Shown: piece after piece, positions 11,679 to 29,335 of the stretch | Position numbering within the stretch: position 1 is the first letter of the stretch | How the letters are laid out: the number at the start of each line of letters is the position of its first letter | Assembly (NCBI GenBank): GCA_027485365.1 | Contig: JAIXRD010000193.1 | Span: 1 to 38,509 of the forward strand | Length of the DNA: 38,509 bases | Direction: 5' to 3' | DNA from: Cryomorphaceae bacterium | GTDB lineage: Bacteria > Bacteroidota > Bacteroidia > Flavobacteriales_D > Crocinitomicaceae | Notes under the pieces: model-generated | What the model was told of the DNA's origin: nothing | Seen by the model: the letters and a program-made list of their open reading frames with translations, nothing else | Databases searched by the model: none | Made by a program: the position numbers and the translations under genes

Positions 11679-12793
11679 AATTTCTCTAAGGCATTGGTGA
11701 GCGTTTCTCGATCTTTTGCGAAACACAAGCGAATGTGATGAAGGTCTTTTTTAGATTTATAAAACACGGAAAGAGGAATAGCGGCGACACCATGTTCTTT
11801 AATTAACCACATGCAAAAATCCACATCATTTTGGGTGGAAATCTGGCTATAGTCTACCGTTTGAAAATAGGTGCCTTCACAGGGTAAGCACGTAAATCTA
11901 CTCGCCGACAATCCTTTTCTAAAACACATCATGCGTTCTTCATACTCGGTTCGAATCAACAAGGGATTAAAGGTTGGTAAATACCTGGAAATCGCATCTT
12001 GCATAACTGAATTCACACTGAACACTAAATACTGATGCACGTTTAATATCCGTTGCATTAGGTTTGTTGGAGCGCACAAATACCCCATTTTCCATCCAGT
12101 AACCTGAAGTGTTTTGCCAAAGGAAGAGACCACAACGGAACGCGTTCTTAACGCTTCGTATGCTCTTACCGAAATATGTTCGCTTGAATAGGTTAAATAC
12201 TCATACACCTCATCAGACAGTATCGTAAGATTTGGATACATAGAAACTAAGTGTATAAGCTGTGAAAAATCTTCGGGACACCAAACACGCCCACTTGGAT
12301 TGTGTGGACTATTGATAATCAGCAACCTTGTTTTTGAGTTTACCGCCGAAGTAATTGCTTGCCAATCTGGTAAAAAATCTGGCCCAAGTTCCACATGTAC
12401 CGGAGTTCCGCCTACTAACAAAACCGGAGTTTCATAACAATCGTAACACGGGTCTAAAAGCACCACCTCATCCCCCGCGGAAACTAGGGCTTGAACTGTT
12501 GTAAAGATGGCTTGTGTTGCGCCTGCAGTAATTAAAATTTCATCCGTCGTAATTGGGTATCCGTTGTTTTGGTCAATCAAGTCTTTAATTGCCTTTCGCA
12601 GGGTCAACTGGCCTTGATAGGGCGCATATTGATGCGCCTCACTTTGAGCCGCCTGAGAAACTGCATTGCGCAGGGCTTGGTCTATTGGAAAATTCGGGAA
12701 ACCTTGTGCTAAGTTTATAGCCCCGTATTCATTCGCTAATTGCGACATAACGGAAAAGATACTCGGGGTAGTTGGGATAGAATGGGTTGCCAT
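11666..12793 (-). CDS. PLP-dependent class I/II aminotransferase (methionine/glutamine-K/kynurenine transaminase-like, YbdL-like)
   Basis: 375 aa; 'NLAQGFPNFP', 'INSPHNPSGRVW', 'ILSDEVYEYLTY', PLP lysine 'SFGKTLQVTGWKMGY'. Confidence 0.88.
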   Translation of the reverse strand: MATHSIPTTPSIFSVMSQLANEYGAINLAQGFPNFPIDQALRNAVSQAAQSEAHQYAPYQGQLTLRKAIKDLIDQNNGYPITTDEILITAGATQAIFTTVQALVSAGDEVVLLDPCYDCYETPVLLVGGTPVHVELGPDFLPDWQAITSAVNSKTRLLIINSPHNPSGRVWCPEDFSQLIHLVSMYPNLTILSDEVYEYLTYSSEHISVRAYEALRTRSVVVSSFGKTLQVTGWKMGYLCAPTNLMQRILNVHQYLVFSVNSVMQDAISRYLPTFNPLLIRTEYEERMMCFRKGLSASRFTCLPCEGTYFQTVDYSQISTQNDVDFCMWLIKEHGVAAIPLSVFYKSKKDLHHIRLCFAKDRETLTNALEKLCKI

Positions 12794-16542: not shown

Positions 16543-17208
16543 TTATGTATGCACTTGCTCGTTCTCAACACGTAAGGTGCGGGCGGGAAATTTTTGTACC
16601 ATTTGAAGGTCATGAGTAGCCATTAACACGGCTGTATTTTCTTCTTTAGATAACGCTACCAACAATTGCATAATTTCTTCCGAAGTTTCTACATCTAAAT
16701 TACCTGTTGGTTCGTCGGCAAGAATAATTTTTGGGTCGTTTAACAAGGCTCGTGCGATGGATACCCGTTGCTGCTCTCCTCCAGACAGGGTGTGGGGCAT
16801 TTGATCCGCTTTTTGTTCTATACCAACCAGTTGCAATACACTCATTGCCCGTTTATGGATTTCCGCTTTATCTTTCCATCCGGTAGCCTTGAGCACAAAA
16901 TATAAATTCTGAATTACAGTACGGTCCAATAATAACTGAAAATCTTGAAACACTATGCCCAATTTTCGTCGTAAAAACGGAATCTCTTTTTGTTTTATCG
17001 TTTTAAGATTATACCCAGCAATAGCCCCTTCACCTTCTGAAATAGACAATTCGCCATACAAGGTCTTTAATAAGGAGCTTTTACCGCTGCCCGTTTTTCC
17101 GATTAAATAAACAAACTCAGCTTCTACAACTGATAAATTAACCTCTTTAAGTACGGTCTTTTCTCCTTGACGGATCGTAACGTCTGTTAAACTAATGATT
17201 TGCTCCAC
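16543..17208 (-). CDS. ftsE: Cell division ABC transporter ATP-binding protein FtsE
   Basis: 221 aa; Walker A '[16 protein letters not shown]', signature '[16 protein letters not shown]', Walker B '[12 protein letters not shown]'; FtsE-like '[16 protein letters not shown]'. Confidence 0.85.
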
Positions 17209-17329
17209 GTGTCATTTTTTACAAAGATGTAACAGAGAACGAGTCGATTCACAAGCGCATAAAATATCTCTTAACAAAAATGAGTGAAAAACTTTTAACC
17301 CAATGCGAATTGAAGCGTTCTGTGCGATA

Positions 17330-17337
17330 TAATTTTG
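17330..17337 (+). promoter_or_regulatory. Putative Bacteroidota -7 element TAATTTTG (TAnnTTTG), TTG at 17310-17312 as -33 candidate
   Basis: Perfect TAnnTTTG just upstream of ATG 17342, TTG 17 nt upstream of it; would imply a very short or leaderless mRNA. Confidence 0.35.
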
Positions 17338-17341
17338 TTCC

Positions 17342-20300
17342 ATGCGAAAAAGTCTCTTTTTTCTATTCTTTATATGGATAGGTGTTGGTTCTTGTTTCTA
17401 TGGGCAAGAAACAATCAAAACAAATTCTGTTTATCGCGATTACCATCGCGCATGGGAGTTGTATGAAAAAAGTCAATTCACTGCGGCACGTATTGAATTT
17501 GAAAATTTTATCAAGCAACCGCTCGATCGAAATGACCCGTTCCTAATTAAGGCTTATTATTATCAAGGCATGTCGGCGTTGGCGCTGTATAACGACGATG
17601 CCATTTCATTGCTCAATACATTCAACCAGACATATCAAGAAAATCCATACAAAAACACAATTAACGTTGAAATTGGTAATTACTTTTTTCAGAAAGAGGA
17701 CTATACTGCAGCGATTCCTTATTATGAGTTGGTCAATAGTTCAGAATTAGATTCTGTAAATAAAGAGGTTTATTTTTTTAAAAAAGGATACAGCTATTTT
17801 ATTGAGGGCCAACAAAAAGAGGCATTAAACGCGTTTAAAGAAGTTAAAAACTCCGCTGGACAATATGGTGCGATTAGCTTATATTATTATGCGCATTTGA
17901 ACTATACCCTTGGAAGCTTAACTGAATCAAAAACCGCCTTTCACCGCCTGAAATACCAGCCAGAATTCACCACGATTGCTCCGTATTATATTGTCCAAAT
18001 AAATCACAAACAAGGATTATATGACAGTGTCATTGCCTATGCACCTTCGGTATTGGATACAGCAGAATTAGGAAACTACAACGACATCGTTCACTTATTA
18101 GGAGATTCATATTTTAAACTTAACCAGTATAAAGAGGCTGCCCAATATTTGTTGATTTTTGACAAACGAGCAAAAACTACAAGAATCGACGATTATCAAC
18201 TTGGTTTCTCTTTAATGAATACCAACCGAGGGGAAGAGGCCATTACCTTTTTGGAGCGTGCCGCAAGATTTGATGATAGCCTTGGTCAAACAGCGATGTA
18301 TCATATCGCTAATTGTTATTTAAATGCAGATAAGATGTTGCCCGCAAGAAATGCGTTTGAGCGTGTTTCTAAAATGACGGCAAAACCCATATTAGCTGAA
18401 GATGCATTGTATCAATTTGCAGTAATTTCATTTAAAATAGACATCAATCCATATGATGAATCCGTACGGGCGTTTGAGGATTATTTAAAAAAATACCCGA
18501 ATTCAAATCGGAAATCAGATATTTTTCAATACTTAGTTAATGTGTATGCCTCCACCAGTAACTATGCTAAAGCGTTGGAGTCCCTGAATAAAATCCCAAA
18601 TAAAGATGCTCAACTTAAAAATGTTTACCAAACCGTGGCTTTTAACTATGGGGTTGATTTGTATCAAAAATCATTATTAGACTCTGCCTTTAACACCTTT
18701 GGATTAGTAGATAAATATCCAAACGAACCAGAAATAATGGCGAAAGCTAAATTTTGGCGAGGGGATATTTACTTCAAAAAAGCGAAATATAAAGAAGCGA
18801 TTACAGAATTTAAAACGTTCTTAGCCGCACCTTCGGCTAATTTATTAGAAGAAAAACCCGATGCATATTATAGCATAGCTTATGCCTATTTAGAACAAGA
18901 CCAATTAACGGATGCCCTGGAATATTTCGGTATTTACCTTCAATCTAAACCCCAAAATGCAGAAAAAAAGCTTGACGCTATGTTTCAACTTGCGGATGGG
19001 AATTATTCTCAGGGTAAAGATGAACAAGCCATTAAATATTATAAAGAAATCCTAGCTAAAAAAACAGAACAAGCCGATCGCGCTTCATTTTACTTAGCAA
19101 AATCATATGGGTATAATAAGCAACCCTTATTGAAAATCTCGACACTAGAAGAGTTAACCGCGGATTATCCAAAGTCAAAATATATTCAAAATGCATCGTA
19201 TGAATTAGCCATGAGCTACAAGGCACAATCCGATTTCACTAAATCTTTTGAAGGGTTTGAGCGTTATGTGCTGAATTATCCAAAATCGCCTAAAGTGGTA
19301 AACTGCCGTATAGAAATGGCAGACATTTACTATAAACAATGGAAATATCAACTGGCGGAAAGCGCGTATCGATCGATATTATTGGAATATGGGAATAAAA
19401 AAGACATCTGTGCTGTAGCAGCAAAAGGACTAATGGATGTGTATGTTGCGATGAAAAGCCCAGAACGCGCAGAAGAAGTGGCAAACGAATACGATTGCGC
19501 TGGTTTATCGGCAGATGAAAAAGAAAACCTGTATTTTAATCCGGCACTACAGAGTTACGTAGATAGTAATTATGTGGAGGCAATTCCTAAGTTTAATCAA
19601 TATTTATCCAAATTTCCGAATGGAAAATTCTCCCAGGATGCACATTTTTATGCCGGTAATGCCTGTTTAAGATTAAAAGATACACTAGCCGCCTTGCCTC
19701 ATTACGAAGCGTATTTAGCCGGTCCAACAGCAAGCTATTTTGAGCCCGTAGCTTTTAAAATTTCTGCCTATTACTACGAAAAAAAGAACTACGAGTCCGC
19801 ACGAATTTATTACCTCAAACTGGAACAATACGCCTCAAAACCGAATAACATTAATGCCGCAAAAATTGGATTAATGCGTTGTGAGTTTCTTCTAAAAAAC
19901 TACCAAGGAGCAAATAATTATGCAAAACAGGTTCGAGAGATTAGCGGATTGAATCAACCCTTAAAAGTCGAAGCAGAATACGCTTATGGAATGAGCGCTT
20001 TTTATCTAAATAACTACAGTACAGCAGAACCTTCGTTGCGGTGGTTGGTTAAAAATACCGGAACCATTAAAGGCGCGGAAGCGAAATATACCCTTGCAGA
20101 AATTCAATTTAAAAACAACGTACTTGACTCTGCTGTAATCCTTGTTAAAGAATTACTTAAAATGAAACCGAGCTATAATTACTGGGTAGCCAAAGGCTTA
20201 ATTCTTCAAACCAAAGTACATATGCAACTCGGAGAATTATTAGAAGCAGAGCAAACCATAACCTCCGTTATTGACTTCTATCCAATTAAAGAAGAAGATG

Positions 20301-20410
20301 GGATTTTAACTGAAGCAAATGCCCTTAAACTGGAGATTGAACGCTTAATGAATCCCACGAAAACTATTGAAAGTGATCCACAAAAAACCATTGACATTAA
20401 ACCCGAATAA
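17342..20410 (+). CDS. Large tetratricopeptide-repeat protein, exported
   Basis: 1022 aa; N-terminal signal; repeated TPR patterns (e.g. 'GDSYFKLNQYKEAAQYLLIF', 'GDIYFKKAKYKEAITEFKTFL'). Confidence 0.85.
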   Translation: MRKSLFFLFFIWIGVGSCFYGQETIKTNSVYRDYHRAWELYEKSQFTAARIEFENFIKQPLDRNDPFLIKAYYYQGMSALALYNDDAISLLNTFNQTYQENPYKNTINVEIGNYFFQKEDYTAAIPYYELVNSSELDSVNKEVYFFKKGYSYFIEGQQKEALNAFKEVKNSAGQYGAISLYYYAHLNYTLGSLTESKTAFHRLKYQPEFTTIAPYYIVQINHKQGLYDSVIAYAPSVLDTAELGNYNDIVHLLGDSYFKLNQYKEAAQYLLIFDKRAKTTRIDDYQLGFSLMNTNRGEEAITFLERAARFDDSLGQTAMYHIANCYLNADKMLPARNAFERVSKMTAKPILAEDALYQFAVISFKIDINPYDESVRAFEDYLKKYPNSNRKSDIFQYLVNVYASTSNYAKALESLNKIPNKDAQLKNVYQTVAFNYGVDLYQKSLLDSAFNTFGLVDKYPNEPEIMAKAKFWRGDIYFKKAKYKEAITEFKTFLAAPSANLLEEKPDAYYSIAYAYLEQDQLTDALEYFGIYLQSKPQNAEKKLDAMFQLADGNYSQGKDEQAIKYYKEILAKKTEQADRASFYLAKSYGYNKQPLLKISTLEELTADYPKSKYIQNASYELAMSYKAQSDFTKSFEGFERYVLNYPKSPKVVNCRIEMADIYYKQWKYQLAESAYRSILLEYGNKKDICAVAAKGLMDVYVAMKSPERAEEVANEYDCAGLSADEKENLYFNPALQSYVDSNYVEAIPKFNQYLSKFPNGKFSQDAHFYAGNACLRLKDTLAALPHYEAYLAGPTASYFEPVAFKISAYYYEKKNYESARIYYLKLEQYASKPNNINAAKIGLMRCEFLLKNYQGANNYAKQVREISGLNQPLKVEAEYAYGMSAFYLNNYSTAEPSLRWLVKNTGTIKGAEAKYTLAEIQFKNNVLDSAVILVKELLKMKPSYNYWVAKGLILQTKVHMQLGELLEAEQTITSVIDFYPIKEEDGILTEANALKLEIERLMNPTKTIESDPQKTIDIKPE

Positions 20411-20411
20411 C

Positions 20412-22130
20412 ATGAAGTACTTTTTGATTTTATTGATTGGGGGTTGGAGTTCTTTGCTTTTTGCTCAGTCCGATGTGTTTGAAACGGATGGAAAGGGAAA
20501 TAGAGATATTGAACGTACGCATCGAATCGCTTCTTCTCCAAAAATTATTGACTCCATTAAAACATCTGCTGTTCCTAATCGCGCCTTGCTTGGACCAAAA
20601 TTAAATGTAAAAATTCAAGTGGATACCATACAAGCTGCTACAATAGAAACAGAACAGTTGCTTGAAAAATTCTATCCCTTTTATTTAAAATTAGGCATGG
20701 GTTCCACCTTAATGCCTTTGGGTGAGTTTTATGTTAATTCTACCCGGTCCCGATCAAATTATTATGGACTGCATGTAAAACACCTCAGTTTCTTTGGAGA
20801 TGTAAAAACGCGCGACAAGCAACAACTTGCGCCAGCTGGCTTTGACCAAACCAGCGTACAAGGCAATTTTGAAACATTTCAAAAGAAGTATACACTTCGA
20901 ACGAATTTAAATTATACAAACCATGGTTTTCACTATTACGGATTAACCCAACCCGAAGTAGATAAAGATTCGATTGCACAACGGTACCAACTGGTTAATG
21001 CACATGCAGACATCAGAACAAATCGGGGCGATACGGGCGTGTTCAATGTACAAACCACGATTGATTTTAGATATACAGGGACTGCTTCGCCTATGGCAGA
21101 TAGCTTAAAAGATTGGCGAGCAAAAGAACAAGGGTTTAATATCAATGGCTTAGGATACCTTCGCTCTGGAAACAATATGTTTTATGGCAACCTTGGTGTT
21201 AGATACAACGGATATGCATATGGAATTCAAGATTCTATATTAAGCCTTTCAGATAGCGGGATCGTTCGGAAAAACACCATCCTAGATATTAATCCTGGAA
21301 TTAAAAGTACCTTATTGAATAACAAACTAATGATTGATGCGGGCTTTAGAGTAAGTGTTGATTTCGCTCAAGAAACCCGAGCTTATTTCTTTCCTGCAAT
21401 CACTATGCAATATGCGTTATCTTCCAACCAATTTGTTCCCTTTATTGCACTTCAAGGCCAAGCTAAACAAAGTTCTTTAACCGGTTTCTACCAAGAAAAT
21501 CAGTTTGTATTGCCAAATCTTCTTATTCAGAACCAAATTAATCCGTATGATATTCAACTTGGATTTAAAGGAGTCGCGGCAAGAAAATTTAGCTACGGAT
21601 TATCCGCAAACTTCATTAAAGAAAACAACCGGGCATTTTTTGTTACCGATACCTTAATTTCAACAGGAAATAAATTTACCTTGGTTTATGATTCGTTAAA
21701 TCACACGAAAATCGAAGGACGTCTAGGTTATCAAGTAGACAAGAAACTAGCCATCGATTTAATAGCTCGATACCATTCGTACGAGATGTTCAATGAAGCG
21801 AAAGCCTGGAACCTACCACAAGCGGAAGTGATCTTAAATGCTAGCTATAACTTATTCGATAAGTTTTTAGTGAAAGCTGGACTAGATTTATCTTTTGGAA
21901 GGTATGCTAAAGTTTATGCATTAGGTGAAAATGTGACCGAACTTAATAATCAATTTGTTTATAACCTAGGGAGTGTTATTGATGGTAACCTAACCTTGGA
22001 ATATAGATATAACAAACGCCTTTCTGCATTTATTCAACTCAACAACATCGCTTCTCAGCGATACCTGAGATTTTATAACTACCCTGTTATGCCGATTTCC
22101 GTGTTCGGTGGATTAACAATAAAGTTTTAA
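20412..22130 (+). CDS. Outer-membrane beta-barrel protein (TonB-receptor/porin-like barrel)
   Basis: Start at ATGAAGTAC inside the longer ORF; signal peptide MKYFLILLIGGWSSLLFAQ; alternating aromatic beta-strands; terminal 'SVFGGLTIKF' ending in Phe. Confidence 0.75.
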   Translation: MKYFLILLIGGWSSLLFAQSDVFETDGKGNRDIERTHRIASSPKIIDSIKTSAVPNRALLGPKLNVKIQVDTIQAATIETEQLLEKFYPFYLKLGMGSTLMPLGEFYVNSTRSRSNYYGLHVKHLSFFGDVKTRDKQQLAPAGFDQTSVQGNFETFQKKYTLRTNLNYTNHGFHYYGLTQPEVDKDSIAQRYQLVNAHADIRTNRGDTGVFNVQTTIDFRYTGTASPMADSLKDWRAKEQGFNINGLGYLRSGNNMFYGNLGVRYNGYAYGIQDSILSLSDSGIVRKNTILDINPGIKSTLLNNKLMIDAGFRVSVDFAQETRAYFFPAITMQYALSSNQFVPFIALQGQAKQSSLTGFYQENQFVLPNLLIQNQINPYDIQLGFKGVAARKFSYGLSANFIKENNRAFFVTDTLISTGNKFTLVYDSLNHTKIEGRLGYQVDKKLAIDLIARYHSYEMFNEAKAWNLPQAEVILNASYNLFDKFLVKAGLDLSFGRYAKVYALGENVTELNNQFVYNLGSVIDGNLTLEYRYNKRLSAFIQLNNIASQRYLRFYNYPVMPISVFGGLTIKF

Positions 22131-22207: not shown

Positions 22208-25153
22208 ATGCCTAAACTACTTTTAATTTATCTTGTCCTTTCAATGCACCTCAGGGTGTTTAGTCAAGCGGTTAATTTTTCTGCCGCATACCAACAACAT
22301 CCGGAAATTCCTCGCGGATTTTTAGAAGCAATTTCCTATACACATACACGCTTTACCCAAATTAATCCTGAAGAATCTCTAAGTTGTTCAGGAATGCCCC
22401 TCCCTTTCGGAATTATGGGAGTTTTTGACCATGGAAATGGATATTTTTTAGAAAATGCTAAACGAATCGAATCCTTAAGTGGAATTAGCATTACCGCTCA
22501 AAAAAATAATGTAATGATGCAAGTAGAAGCCTATGCATCAGCCTGTGCAAGCCTCATCCAAAGTTACGCCGTCACGGGAGATAACACGCCAGAATTAATG
22601 TATAATTTAATGTGGGAACTGAGTGAAATTCCTCGAGAAGGAAGTATTAATCGGTTCGCCTTTGAATCCAGCGTTTTGGAAGTATTTCGTTTTTTAACCG
22701 ATGAATCCCAAGCGGCTACTTTTGGCTTTCCATTGTATGAAATCAATATGAAAGACTTCTTTGGAAGAAATAACTATGCGGTGTTAACCGCAACAACCGT
22801 TACCATTGATTCCACCGGAATTAAAAACCAAGATCAACTCCATTACCATGGAGGAAATAGTTTAAAATCTATCAATTACGGACCCGCCCTTTGGAATGCA
22901 GCACCCACGTGTAACTATAGCAGTAGAAACGGAAGCGCCATTTCAGCGGTAACCATTCATACGGTACAAGGAACCTATGCCGGAGCTATTTCGTGGGGAC
23001 TAAACTGCAACGCGCAAGTATCCTATCATTATGTGGTGCGCAGTTCAGACGGTCAAGTTACCCAAATGGTCTTAGAAAGCAACAAGGCTTGGCACGTGGG
23101 TAATGAAAACGGATACACCATTGGAATAGAACATGAAGGGTATGTTTCTAATGCCGCGTGGTACACGCCATCGCTTTATCAATCCTCTGCAAACCTGGTA
23201 AAAGACATTACCCAAAGTGGGTATGGAATAAATCCGAAACGGACCTATGATGGTGCAAGCTCAAGTACTACGCAATTGCTCGGTAATTGCATCCGCATCA
23301 AGGGACATCAGCATTATGCTAACCAAAGCCACACCGACCCTGGAATTAATTGGAATTGGAATAAATACTATGGATTAGTCAACGACACCTATACCCCAAC
23401 ACTGCTTACCAATCCTTCAGGAACCTTTTATGACTCTGGTGGGGCAAATGGAAATTACGCGTCTGATGAGCGAAGTGTTTGGGTAATCCAAGCCACGCAA
23501 GGAAGTACAATTACACTTCAATTTACTGCCTTCGAATTAGAGGCTTCCTTTGATAAGTTATTGCTGTACAACGGCCCAAACCTAAATTCTCCGTTACTCG
23601 GTAGTTTTACTGGCAACAGCATTCCACCAAACATCCAATCTACCGGAAACACCTTAACCATAGAATTTCGTTCGGATTGCGCCACCCAATTGGCTGGTTG
23701 GGTTGCCAACTACCATACCGTTGCGCTTACCAACGATATTACTCCACCGGTTAGCACCTTAAGTTATACTGGAACTTGGCAAACGCAATCGTTCACCGCT
23801 GCGTTTCAAGATACCGATGCCTCTGTAATAAAACACAAATTCTATCATGTAGCAGCAAGAGCATCTTCAACAACACCCTTTTTATCCAATCAACCGATGG
23901 GTTTCTTTGAAGATGAATTTAATGGCAATTCAGGACTTTGGACCAATCAATCAGGGAATTTTCAAGTCATGAATGGATGTTTTATTCTGAACGACGCCAC
24001 ACAGAATAATTCAAACGCGTATGCCCAAGTAAGCCAATCTTCACAACATACGTACTTATATACTTGGAAACAACGAATTACATCCAGCAACGCCAATCAA
24101 CGCGCAGGAATGCACTTTTTCTGTAGCGATCCAACCCTGCAGAATCGAGGCAATTCCTACTTTGTATATTTTAGAGAAGAAACGGATAAGGTTCAACTAT
24201 ATAAAGTAATGAACGATGTCTTTAGCTTAGTCAAAGAAGATTCAGTTAATGTCTTGGTAAATCAATGGGATCAAGTCTATGTTACCTATAATCCACAAAG
24301 TGGATTAATTCAGGTATACCTTAATGCGTTACAAGTGTGTACTTGGACCGATGCCAACCCGCTTCAACAAGGTACCGCGATTTCCTTGCGCTCTGGAGCA
24401 TGTACTGTAACGTTTGATGAAGTTTATGTCTATAAAAATCACTCAAACAGCGAACTAATTGCGGTTGGACCCATGCAGGAAATTCATCAGCAAAGTGACC
24501 AACAGATTCCGAGTGGAAAGATTAGAGTTATTGCCATGGATAGCCTTGGAAACTGGAATGTTCCACATGAAACCTTAGTTCAGGTAGACTGGACCGCACC
24601 CGTAATTTCCTCACTAAACGATGGTGCATACTCGGATATAGACAGTGTATATCAACCGATTCTTGAAGGGAATTGGATAGATAATGAGCCACATTCTGGA
24701 CTGGGTTATCAATCTATTGACATCGGAAGTTCCCCTTTGGGAAATGATTTTGTTCAAGCGCATCCGGTAGCGAATAATACATTTACACTCAGTGCAAACG
24801 GGATGGTACCAAACCAAATTTATTATACCACACTTCAGGTGAGTAATCAAGCCGGGTTAAGCACTCAGCTATGTTCCGACGGACAACGCTTTATCAATCA
24901 CGCGAATATCGAATTGAATAATCCGCTAATGGACGTGATACTCTTTCCAAATCCAATTCAAGACGGGCAATTAAGCATTGAAAATTTGATGTTCCCGGTG
25001 GAATTAACGGTGTATGATTTAAATGGCAGGTTGATTAATACCCGTGAAATTACGAACGATGGAAAAACACCCTTGGATCTAAGCACCGGAAGGTATTTAA
25101 TCAAACTCTCCGGAAACGGACATGAATTAATAAAACAAGTGATTGCCTATTGA
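22208..25153 (+). CDS. T9SS-secreted N-acetylmuramoyl-L-alanine amidase (Amidase_2) with CUB and LamG-like domains, paralog 1
   Basis: 981 aa; signal peptide; 'AVTIHTVQGTYAGAISWGLN', 'HYVVRSSDGQVTQMV...AWHVGN...TIGIEHEGYV', 'KGHQHYANQSHTDPGINWNW'; CUB-like 'YDSGGANGNYASDERSVWVIQ'; C-terminal 'ILFPNPIQDGQLSIENL'. Confidence 0.88.
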   Translation: MPKLLLIYLVLSMHLRVFSQAVNFSAAYQQHPEIPRGFLEAISYTHTRFTQINPEESLSCSGMPLPFGIMGVFDHGNGYFLENAKRIESLSGISITAQKNNVMMQVEAYASACASLIQSYAVTGDNTPELMYNLMWELSEIPREGSINRFAFESSVLEVFRFLTDESQAATFGFPLYEINMKDFFGRNNYAVLTATTVTIDSTGIKNQDQLHYHGGNSLKSINYGPALWNAAPTCNYSSRNGSAISAVTIHTVQGTYAGAISWGLNCNAQVSYHYVVRSSDGQVTQMVLESNKAWHVGNENGYTIGIEHEGYVSNAAWYTPSLYQSSANLVKDITQSGYGINPKRTYDGASSSTTQLLGNCIRIKGHQHYANQSHTDPGINWNWNKYYGLVNDTYTPTLLTNPSGTFYDSGGANGNYASDERSVWVIQATQGSTITLQFTAFELEASFDKLLLYNGPNLNSPLLGSFTGNSIPPNIQSTGNTLTIEFRSDCATQLAGWVANYHTVALTNDITPPVSTLSYTGTWQTQSFTAAFQDTDASVIKHKFYHVAARASSTTPFLSNQPMGFFEDEFNGNSGLWTNQSGNFQVMNGCFILNDATQNNSNAYAQVSQSSQHTYLYTWKQRITSSNANQRAGMHFFCSDPTLQNRGNSYFVYFREETDKVQLYKVMNDVFSLVKEDSVNVLVNQWDQVYVTYNPQSGLIQVYLNALQVCTWTDANPLQQGTAISLRSGACTVTFDEVYVYKNHSNSELIAVGPMQEIHQQSDQQIPSGKIRVIAMDSLGNWNVPHETLVQVDWTAPVISSLNDGAYSDIDSVYQPILEGNWIDNEPHSGLGYQSIDIGSSPLGNDFVQAHPVANNTFTLSANGMVPNQIYYTTLQVSNQAGLSTQLCSDGQRFINHANIELNNPLMDVILFPNPIQDGQLSIENLMFPVELTVYDLNGRLINTREITNDGKTPLDLSTGRYLIKLSGNGHELIKQVIAY

Positions 25154-25164
25154 TGCTGATGATA

Positions 25165-25259
25165 AGGCAAGCTTCAAACGCCGCAGGCAAATGGGTAGCG
25201 AAAATGGATTCGAAATCTTTGGATACATATTCTAACACATCCAAGCCTGCGGCTTTTAT
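25165..25259 (-). pseudogene. Fragment of 2-hydroxyacid dehydrogenase gene (partial copy of 28501-28600)
   Basis: 25173-25259 vs 28514-28600: 80/87 identical by hand alignment; flanked by AGGCAAGC (25165-25172 = 28501-28508) with a 5-nt deletion. Reverse strand reads KAAGLDVLEYVSKDFESIFATHLPAAFE vs KAAGLDVLEFESKDFESIFATQLPASFE. Confidence 0.93.
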
Positions 25260-25356
25260 AAACGTGAACAACGTAAGCTCTCAAAGGTATTTGGGGTATT
25301 GTAATTGTCCCGTTCTTCCCATTCAATTTCTTGCTGTAATTACAGCACGTTTCTAA
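25255..25356 (+). pseudogene. Remnant of the 3' end (last 33 codons plus stop) of a second outer-membrane beta-barrel gene
   Basis: FINVNNVSSQRYLGYCNCPVLPIQFLAVITARF* aligns gaplessly with FIQLNNIASQRYLRFYNYPVMPISVFGGLTIKF* of the 20412-22130 protein (16/33 identical, same stop position). Confidence 0.85.
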
Positions 25357-25424
25357 ACCAGAACTTAACAATCATTTATTATCGAAATAAAATTTTTCTT
25401 TAGAACTTTGCCAATAATAACAAA

Positions 25425-28397
25425 ATGTTAATTATGCGATTATTCTTGTTTATTCTGTTCTCTACTTTTGCTCTTGGCGTCACAACAGCACAATCGGTAT
25501 CTTTCGACCATGCTTATCAACAGTTTCCTTCTGTTCCTAAGGGGTTCCTAGAGGCCTACGCCTTTACACATACGCGCATGGTGCCCGTAGATTCGCAAGA
25601 AACAACTCCTTGTTCTGGTATGCCTTTGCCTTATGGCATCATGGGGGTGTTCGCGGATGGAAAAGGGTATTTTAATGAGAACGGAAAACTCATTGGAAAA
25701 CTCAGTCGAATTGGAATAAATGAACAAAAAGATCAGGTTTCTGTGCAAATATTTGCCTTTGCAAAGGCCTGTGATTCACTGTTACGCTTTTGGGAAACAA
25801 CCCAAAATTCCCGTAAAACAGAGGCGGAAAAAATATATGGTCTCATGGCTGTTTTGACTGAATTTCCCCAAAACAATGAAGGCAACTTATATGCCTTTCA
25901 AAGCAGCGTTTACGAAGTTTATTCCTTTTTAAACGATGAGTATTATGCCGCTACGTATAATTTTCCACTATATGCTTTGGATATGAAGGCACAATTTGGT
26001 GAAAAGAATTATGCCGTGCTTTCATCCCAAAAACTAACCTTATCTGACGAGGGCATAACCAATGTGGATGGTGTTAAATACGATGCTCAAATCGCTCAAC
26101 TCAAGTCGGCTGACTATGGTCCTGCCTTGTGGACAGCAGCACCAACCTGCAATTACAGTTCGCGAAATGGAACGGCAATCTCTGCGGTCACCATTCACAC
26201 TGTACAAGGAACCTATTCCGGAGCAATTTCTTGGGGCTTAAATTGTAACTCACAGGTTTCTTATCATTACGTGGTAAGAAGTTCTGATGGACAAACCACA
26301 CAAATGGTATTAGAAACAAACAAGGCTTGGCATGTAGGCACGGCGAATCCTTACACCATTGGAATAGAACACGAAGGGTATGTTTCAAATCCGACATGGT
26401 ATACCAACGCTATGTACCAAGCATCCGCCAACTTAGTTAAAGACATTACACAGAGTGGCTATGGCATTAACCCACTTCGGACCTATCACGGGGCATCCTC
26501 AACAAGCACCCAAACGCTTGGGAATTGTTTAAAAATAAAAGGCCACCAGCATTACCCAAGTCAATTACATACCGACCCAGGAATTAATTGGAATTGGGAA
26601 AAATACTACCGTCTCATAAACAACACCTATACACCAACCCTCATCACAAATGCCAGCGGTAGCTTTTTTGACACCGGAGGTGCAGGGGCAAATTATCCAA
26701 ACGACGAAAGAAGAGTGTGGGTTATTCAACCCGTTGGCGCGAGCAACATTACCCTGACTTTTACGCAATTCAATGTGCAACCGGTATTTGATAAGATGAT
26801 TATCTATGACGGAGCGAACATTAATGCACCGATTATTGGGTCCTATTCAGGAAGTACCTTGCCCGCAATAGCAACCTCTACAACAGGTGCCTTAACCATT
26901 GAATTTCGTTCGGATTGTACTACCACCCAAACCGGTTGGAGCGCTACATATGTGTCCTCTCAAAACAACATCGACAATACGCCTCCTTCTTGTGTGGCAA
27001 CGGTGCCTCAAGTTTGGAATACCCAGGATTTCACTGCCACCTTACAATCGACAGATGCACAGTCGGGTGTTTTAAAATCTTACTACAATGTCTCAGACCG
27101 TTCTTCGATGAATGCAAAATTCTTCAGTAATCCCAGTTATGGGTTTTTACGAGATGAATTTACCTTAAACAACCTTCAATGGACAAATCAAACAGGGGCA
27201 TATCAAGTAAACGCTGGGGTATTCTCCTTAAACGATGCAAGCCAAAACAATTCCAATGCGTACGCCCAATTAACCCAAAACACCGGCTCCATTTATTTAT
27301 ACACCTGGAGACAACGCATGACCTCTAGCAACGCAAACCAGCGAGCAGGAATGCACTTTTTCTGCAGCGATCCAACCCTGCCAAATCGAGGCAATTCCTA
27401 TTTCGTTTTTTTCAGAGAAGAGACGAATAAGGTACAGATTTACAAGGTTATCAATGATGCATTTACAATTGTATTTGAAGACACGGCTATCATGGCGCCT
27501 AACGTATGGTATAAAGTTTACACGCATTACAATCCTTCTAATGGATGGATCAAGGTATATTTAAATGGTGTTTCTATTGCACAGTGGCAAGACGCGAACC
27601 CTCTGCTTACCGGAAACTCTGTTTCATTGCGATCTGGAGGCTGTACCATAGATTTTGATGACATCTTTGTATACAAGGCAAATTCACCTACGGAAATTGT
27701 TTCTGTTGGGGCTAATAAAGAAATCAGGTACCAAAGTGATCAACAAATTCAGTCTGGTGATATTCGTATGATTGCCATTGATTCCGCTGGAAACTGGTCT
27801 GCTCCCTCATCCCAATTGGTACAGGTAGATTGGACCGCACCACAGTTAAATGCCATCAACGATGGAGCAGGCAACGACATTGATACTGTATACACTTCTA
27901 CCCTTTATTCGAATTGGAACATCGTTGATCCTCATTCTGGAATCTCCTATTTTGATGTTTCTGTTGGAACAAGTGCGGGAAGTACAAACATCAGCAATTG
28001 GGTGGGAGTAAACAATGTCAACTCATATAACCATACGCTCGCCTCGCCGGTTTATAATACCACATATTACATAAATAATCGCGCTTTTAACAATGCAACG
28101 CTTACTGCTACTTACTCCACGGATGGGCAAAAATTGATTCTAAACGCAGGTTTACAAGAAGACCATTTATTAAACAATGTAGAGATTTATCCGAATCCGA
28201 ATGACGGTTCTGTGTTGTACTTTAATAATGTAACACAACCCATTCAAATTGATGTGTACGATGCCAACGGAAAATGCGTAATTTCATCAAAACTGCAACA
28301 AAACGGTGGGATTCCAATCTCTTTGGCCAATGGGTTTTATCAGGTGTGGGTCAAAAATTCGAATGACTTTGTGGTTAAAAAACTCATAGTTCATTGA
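25425..28397 (+). CDS. T9SS-secreted N-acetylmuramoyl-L-alanine amidase (Amidase_2) with CUB and LamG-like domains, paralog 2
   Basis: 990 aa; colinear with the 22208-25153 product over its full length with identical domain order; T9SS C-terminus 'IYPNPNDGSVLYFNNV...GFYQVWVKNSNDFVVKKLIVH'. Confidence 0.88.
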   Translation: MLIMRLFLFILFSTFALGVTTAQSVSFDHAYQQFPSVPKGFLEAYAFTHTRMVPVDSQETTPCSGMPLPYGIMGVFADGKGYFNENGKLIGKLSRIGINEQKDQVSVQIFAFAKACDSLLRFWETTQNSRKTEAEKIYGLMAVLTEFPQNNEGNLYAFQSSVYEVYSFLNDEYYAATYNFPLYALDMKAQFGEKNYAVLSSQKLTLSDEGITNVDGVKYDAQIAQLKSADYGPALWTAAPTCNYSSRNGTAISAVTIHTVQGTYSGAISWGLNCNSQVSYHYVVRSSDGQTTQMVLETNKAWHVGTANPYTIGIEHEGYVSNPTWYTNAMYQASANLVKDITQSGYGINPLRTYHGASSTSTQTLGNCLKIKGHQHYPSQLHTDPGINWNWEKYYRLINNTYTPTLITNASGSFFDTGGAGANYPNDERRVWVIQPVGASNITLTFTQFNVQPVFDKMIIYDGANINAPIIGSYSGSTLPAIATSTTGALTIEFRSDCTTTQTGWSATYVSSQNNIDNTPPSCVATVPQVWNTQDFTATLQSTDAQSGVLKSYYNVSDRSSMNAKFFSNPSYGFLRDEFTLNNLQWTNQTGAYQVNAGVFSLNDASQNNSNAYAQLTQNTGSIYLYTWRQRMTSSNANQRAGMHFFCSDPTLPNRGNSYFVFFREETNKVQIYKVINDAFTIVFEDTAIMAPNVWYKVYTHYNPSNGWIKVYLNGVSIAQWQDANPLLTGNSVSLRSGGCTIDFDDIFVYKANSPTEIVSVGANKEIRYQSDQQIQSGDIRMIAIDSAGNWSAPSSQLVQVDWTAPQLNAINDGAGNDIDTVYTSTLYSNWNIVDPHSGISYFDVSVGTSAGSTNISNWVGVNNVNSYNHTLASPVYNTTYYINNRAFNNATLTATYSTDGQKLILNAGLQEDHLLNNVEIYPNPNDGSVLYFNNVTQPIQIDVYDANGKCVISSKLQQNGGIPISLANGFYQVWVKNSNDFVVKKLIVH

Positions 28398-29335
28398 TTA
28401 TCTGCCCATTCTAAAATTTTATCTGCTAAAACATTACTGAGTTTAAAATAACTCTCTTTCGTCCAACCGCCAACGTGTGGACTAAGCATTACGCGGTCAG
28501 AGGCAAGCAGGTATTCAAACGACGCAGGCAATTGGGTAGCGAAAATGGATTCAAAATCTTTGGATTCAAATTCTAACACATCCAAGCCTGCAGCCTTTAT
28601 TTTATTAGATGCTAACCCCTGCATTAGTGCTTCGGTATTCACAATTTTTCCACGGGATAAATTCAACAAGTAGAATGGTTTTTGAACCGAATCAATAAAC
28701 GAAGTGTCTACAAAGCCAAGGGTTTCTTTGTTTTGTGGAATGTGTAGTGAAATCACATCAGCTGAATTCAAAATTGCTTCTAGGGTGCTCTCAAGTACAA
28801 ACGCATCTCCAAAGCCCTGTTTGTATTTATCATAAGCCAAGACCTTCACATCAAAGCCGCGTAATTTTTTTGCAAAGGCCGACCCATTGTTCCCGTAACC
28901 AATGATGCCCACCGTTTTTCCGTCCAATTCTTCTCCTCGATTGTCCTCGCGCTTCCATAAACCACGATTTATTTGGTCATTCGCTCGACACAATTTGTTC
29001 ATGAGTGCGAGTAACATCCCTAAGGCATGTTCGGCTACCGCATTTCGATTTCCTTCTGGAGAATTAAATAACTGAATTTGGTGTTCCTTACAATAGGCCG
29101 TATCGATGTTCTCAAGTCCTGAACCTGAACGGGCAATAAATGCTAAGTTCGGAAAAGAAGCAATTAATTCCGCGTTCAAAAAAAATCGGGCACGAACAAC
29201 CAAGCCATGCACTTCATTTCGTCGTTCCAATAATTCATCCAGACTCCATTGGGTGGCATCTATGCAATGCAACCCACTTTTAGCTAAACGCTCCTGAAGT
29301 ATGGGATGAACCTTATCAATAAAAAACACATTCAT
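28391..29335 (-). CDS. D-isomer specific 2-hydroxyacid dehydrogenase (phosphoglycerate dehydrogenase-like)
   Basis: 314 aa; 'ARSGSGLENIDTAYC', Rossmann 'GKTVGIIGYGNNGSAFAKKL', 'LLNLSRGKIVNTEAL', 'AAGLDVLEFE', 'LSPHVGGWT'. Confidence 0.9.
   Translation of the reverse strand: MNVFFIDKVHPILQERLAKSGLHCIDATQWSLDELLERRNEVHGLVVRARFFLNAELIASFPNLAFIARSGSGLENIDTAYCKEHQIQLFNSPEGNRNAVAEHALGMLLALMNKLCRANDQINRGLWKREDNRGEELDGKTVGIIGYGNNGSAFAKKLRGFDVKVLAYDKYKQGFGDAFVLESTLEAILNSADVISLHIPQNKETLGFVDTSFIDSVQKPFYLLNLSRGKIVNTEALMQGLASNKIKAAGLDVLEFESKDFESIFATQLPASFEYLLASDRVMLSPHVGGWTKESYFKLSNVLADKILEWADNQ

Follow-up and report, generated by a model that had tools for sequence, protein, structure and literature searches.

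The scar between two adjacent amidase genes of a freshwater flavobacterium as the probable border of an imported cassette

How did two genes for similar secreted amidases come to lie side by side in one genome, and what is the mosaic stretch between them? The window, that is, the whole 38,509-nucleotide stretch of DNA analysed, carries from left to right a beta-barrel gene, amidase 1 (Am1), amidase 2 (Am2) and a convergent 2-hydroxyacid dehydrogenase gene, dhd (Table 1). Each amidase is about 980 residues long and contains Amidase_2, CUB and T9SS sorting domains; PF01510, PF18962 and TIGR04183 scored over cut-off in both, and on these domains both are predicted to be secreted T9SS N-acetylmuramoyl-L-alanine amidases. 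Position 25434 is a possible alternative to the Am2 start at 25425, and the first ATG is missing in G108, a sister species with a separate assembly. Among 86 genomes of the genus, the tandem pair was found only in the window's genome (G000) and in G108. The single-amidase arrangement that the first-pass annotation had expected in sister genomes (barrel, one amidase, convergent dhd) was seen in G006, G003, G020 and G005. Am1 shares 88%, 82% and 78% amino acid identity with the amidase at the same locus in G108, G024 and G006, respectively. Unlinked second copies of the amidase family, at approximately 49-51% identity, are found at G006:C13:23635-26520 and G059:C127:8885-11767.

Table 1. Features of the amidase locus, in window coordinates. 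Clade R is the clade of the window's genome; clade D (G064, G096) is the donor clade, in the same genus.
Feature	Position	Strand	Basis
Native beta-barrel, undisturbed left neighbour	20412..22130	+	Amino acid identity 77-90% to clade R, 56% to donor clade
Am1, native amidase	22208..25153	+	Amidase_2, CUB and T9SS sorting domain
68-codon ORF spanning the scar, fortuitous	25150..25356	+	Antisense dhd plus barrel tail; no family match
Native DNA directly 3' of Am1; deletion point	25154..25164		Compared with G024 and G108
Relic of native dhd 3' region	25165..25259	-	Duplicate of 28501-28600
Left junction, 8-bp microhomology GCTTTTAT common to native dhd and donor barrel	25252..25259
Donor-clade barrel tail, last 34 codons plus stop, decaying	25252..25356	+	90-91% DNA identity to G064/G096
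Donor intergenic region, presumed Am2 promoter	25357..25424	+	Sequence comparison
Am2, xenolog from clade D	25425..28397	+	96% amino acid identity, dS 0.18-0.20 to G064/G096
Donor-derived dhd end, last ~21 codons (~64 bp)	28391..28454	-	Diagnostic sites
Right junction, homologous crossover interval within dhd	28455..28481		Donor-to-native switch, G000 and G108
Native remainder of dhd (2-hydroxyacid dehydrogenase)	28482..29335	-	Sequence comparison

The first-pass annotation had read the stretch between the amidases as a chimera of a dhd copy and a barrel tail, and both pieces are there. In the left half, 25173-25259 matches 28514-28600 at 80 of 87 positions (92%), as had been counted before; allowing a 5-nt gap widens the match to 25165-25259 against 28501-28600 (E 4e-30), and the whole-genome search returned no other copy of this piece. 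Over 95 columns, the relic differs at three sites from the dhd of G108 and at seven from the dhd of its own genome. Comparison with G024 and G108 places a loss of ~85 bp of the dhd terminus in the G000 lineage, directly after Am1. The right half resembles the tail of the native barrel, and the earlier count of 16 identical residues out of 33 was recovered. However, it does not descend from the native barrel, since the clade D barrel matches far better (28 of 34 residues, ~90-91% DNA identity). Relative to the donor consensus, this tail has 10 changes, seven of them at codon positions 1-2, the pattern that would be expected without constraint. The idea of a lost barrel gene did not hold: the last 34 codons alone were imported, and as far as can be seen a second barrel was never resident in this genome. 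The scar is a real chimera and a non-functional fossil.

At the left join, the dhd of G108 and G024 reads GCGGCTTTTAT and then, across the join, TTTATTGG (TTTATT after GCGGCTTTTAT in the G108-type dhd), and the G064 and G096 barrels read TCAGCTTTTAT and then AAACGTG. The two parents share the eight bases GCTTTTAT at 25252-25259, and a microhomology of at least 8 bp has a chance of ~1.5e-4 at a random join. A microhomology join had been proposed before, with a length of 5 bp (TTTAT). The join stands and the length does not: in the window, dhd has changed at this point since then (GCAGCCTTTAT), and the parent is a barrel other than the native one.

Am2 is 54% identical to Am1, whereas its identity to the G064 and G096 amidases is 96%. 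Identity to these two genomes is 91-97% from 25252 to ~28454, a block that comprises the barrel tail, the intergenic region, Am2 and the terminal ~64 bp of dhd, whereas in the flanks it is 50-76%, mostly 55-70%. Synonymous divergence gives the same contrast, with dS of 0.18 and 0.20 for Am2 versus at least 2.7, or saturation, for the TPR, barrel, dhd and gidA genes. In the amidase protein tree, the Am2 of G000 and G108 group with G064 and G096 (100/100). The tandem copies are not mutual closest relatives, as a clade uniting them was rejected (p-AU 4e-41), and a position of Am2 within clade R was rejected as well (p 2e-4). By sequence comparison, amidase 2 came from another clade, jointly with the barrel tail upstream of it and the ~64 bp that end dhd. 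The transfer went from D to R, because clade D has a complete barrel, amidase and dhd in the usual order, whereas the extra barrel of clade R is a 34-codon stump. The dN/dS of Am2 is ~0.1, so purifying selection maintains the gene.

On the right side, all 10 diagnostic sites between 28399 and 28454 are of donor type, and all fully diagnostic sites from 28482 onward are native, in G000 and G108 alike. The change from donor to native type falls between 28454 and 28482, which makes the final ~21 codons of dhd foreign and puts a homologous crossover within 28455-28481. The left join sits at the equivalent of 28600, beyond this crossover; therefore, 120-145 bp of native dhd are duplicated. The convergent genes Am2 and dhd share a 7-bp overlap (28391-28397), which arrived with the donor DNA.

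Identity to the clade R relatives is itself stepwise, at 17000-22100 and 28400-29100 of the window. It is 87-96% to G108 and G024 versus 66-74% to G006, G059 and G082 at 20900-21800, and 95% to G006 at 17000-17300. Such steps suggest that these species often recombine homologously with one another.

The stretch between the amidases is thus most probably the scar at the left border of a ~3.2-kb import from clade D into clade R, by an event resembling homology-facilitated illegitimate recombination (HFIR). The defining features of HFIR are a homologous end and, at the other end, a microhomology of mostly 3-10 bp (PMC3240628). A member of clade R would have taken up DNA of a clade D species of the same genus, in a fragment that ran from the last 34 barrel codons through the intergenic region and the amidase gene into the 3' end of dhd. 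One end would have recombined homologously within dhd, and the other would have been joined illegitimately, at the 8-bp GCTTTTAT. Two chromosome copies were probably involved, as the illegitimate join is situated 120-145 bp deeper into dhd than the crossover; such an inter-chromatid join would have duplicated part of dhd and added a gene with none lost. In HFIR, recipient DNA is normally lost (PMC3240628), usually as a deletion of similar size, though this is not strictly defining. Here, on the contrary, no gene is lost and a stretch of dhd is duplicated, and it is for this reason that we infer the inter-chromatid step. Later deletions would have trimmed the scar, with Am2 itself remaining intact under purifying selection. 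HFIR is also characterised by dependence on RecA and by uptake of linear DNA; on this side, homologs of dprA and comEC are present in the genome. Such homologs are widespread, and they allow transformation but do not show it.

The duplicated dhd piece could be obtained without any inter-chromatid join if a native tandem duplication (barrel, Am1, scar, Am1', dhd) came first, and clade D DNA then replaced Am1', the barrel tail and the dhd end by homologous recombination. For that, however, the start of the replacement would have to coincide with the microhomology join, where the barrel sequences are only ~55-58% alike, and not one base of the native barrel is left. The shared stretch at the join is also longer with the donor barrel (8 bp) than with the native one (5 bp), and the intermediate is absent from the clade R genomes examined. 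We consider this two-step route unlikely.

G108 informs on the later history of the insert. Its left scar was trimmed differently from that of G000: there the native terminus stops after ...TTTTATCCG and the sequence continues in the barrel tail at TGCTGTAATT, so that the rest of the dhd copy and most of the barrel tail are gone. These unlike left joins, together with a G000-G108 divergence lower in Am2 than in the flanks, could reflect independent imports into the two lineages. But the right crossover interval is identical in both, two changes in the barrel tail are common to both, and 41 sites group the two cassettes, versus 9 and 4 for the alternative pairings, which supports one import and makes separate ones improbable. 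Since dS between G000 and G108 is 0.14 for Am2, below the 0.42-1.5 of native genes, the insert probably also moved later between the two lineages, in which case the event need not date to the ancestor of G000 itself.

The G000 assembly is in 356 contigs with 5% contamination, and a chimera of two lake species, made in assembly or binning, was considered; this is very improbable, as the right junction recurs in the separate assembly of G108, with substitutions of its own, and a duplication plus a deletion at a scar are not usual products of assemblers. The cause given in the first-pass annotation, a head-to-tail tandem duplication of barrel tail, amidase and dhd end within this genome, fits the order of the pieces and the existence of single-amidase sister loci, but as the sole event it is refuted by the tree, the dS of Am2 and the identity map, the barrel tail and the dhd terminus being of donor type as well.

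We give hardly any credence to the 68-codon ORF (TTG at 25150 to TAA at 25356) as a conserved small gene: the frame is open throughout, but no such unit occurs in G108 or in the other genomes of the genus that were searched, it matches no protein family, and changes hit all codon positions. It is a fortuitous relic, as the first-pass annotation had also held. Within the scar, window 25181-25255 folds well (z -2.6) into a hairpin with a 9-bp stem (GCCGCAGGC/GCCTGCGGC), followed by TTTTAT. Its candidacy as a retained terminator was rejected: across 21 dhd genes the stem is not conserved and its arms rarely beat synonymous-codon shuffles, which points to a coding coincidence. In G108, a 6-bp hairpin, GTGCTGTAATTCCAGCAC, lies in the trimmed scar directly past Am1 (contig L127, ~12527-12545).

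Similar genes in tandem are often taken for duplications. Here the intergenic scar, which preserves both joins at base level, marks the second copy as an import, and the case is a well-resolved natural example of a known process. It points to HFIR-like import as a process at work in uncultured freshwater flavobacteria, one able to add a gene while leaving its neighbour undisrupted. A literature search on such gene addition in flavobacteria returned nothing direct. Tentatively, HFIR may also have an additive form: the microhomology join would land on the sister chromatid, past the homologous anchor, and foreign alleles would be set next to the native gene without loss and with a short duplicated scar. 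If so, such events could quite generally give rise to tandem "paralogs" that are in truth imports.

HFIR is known in Acinetobacter, Streptococcus pneumoniae and Pseudomonas stutzeri (summarised in PMC3240628). As in these systems, the locus has one homologous end, 3-10 bp of microhomology at the other and an insert of kilobase size; unlike in them, recipient DNA was duplicated (~120-145 bp) rather than deleted, and the event is natural, old and in an uncultured flavobacterium. In pneumococcus, interchromatid integration of transforming DNA yields duplications (PMC3784515). The merodiploids described there are similar in that a donor fragment bridges two chromatids and a duplication is left; they have, however, a long repeat as second anchor and a duplication of ~100-900 kb, as compared with a microhomology and ~0.1 kb here. 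For the T6SS immunity gene arrays of Vibrio cholerae, a comparable outcome was proposed, in which HFIR sets a new allele next to the existing one and gene remnants stay behind (PMC5361080); there an effector is displaced, whereas here both amidases and dhd are intact.
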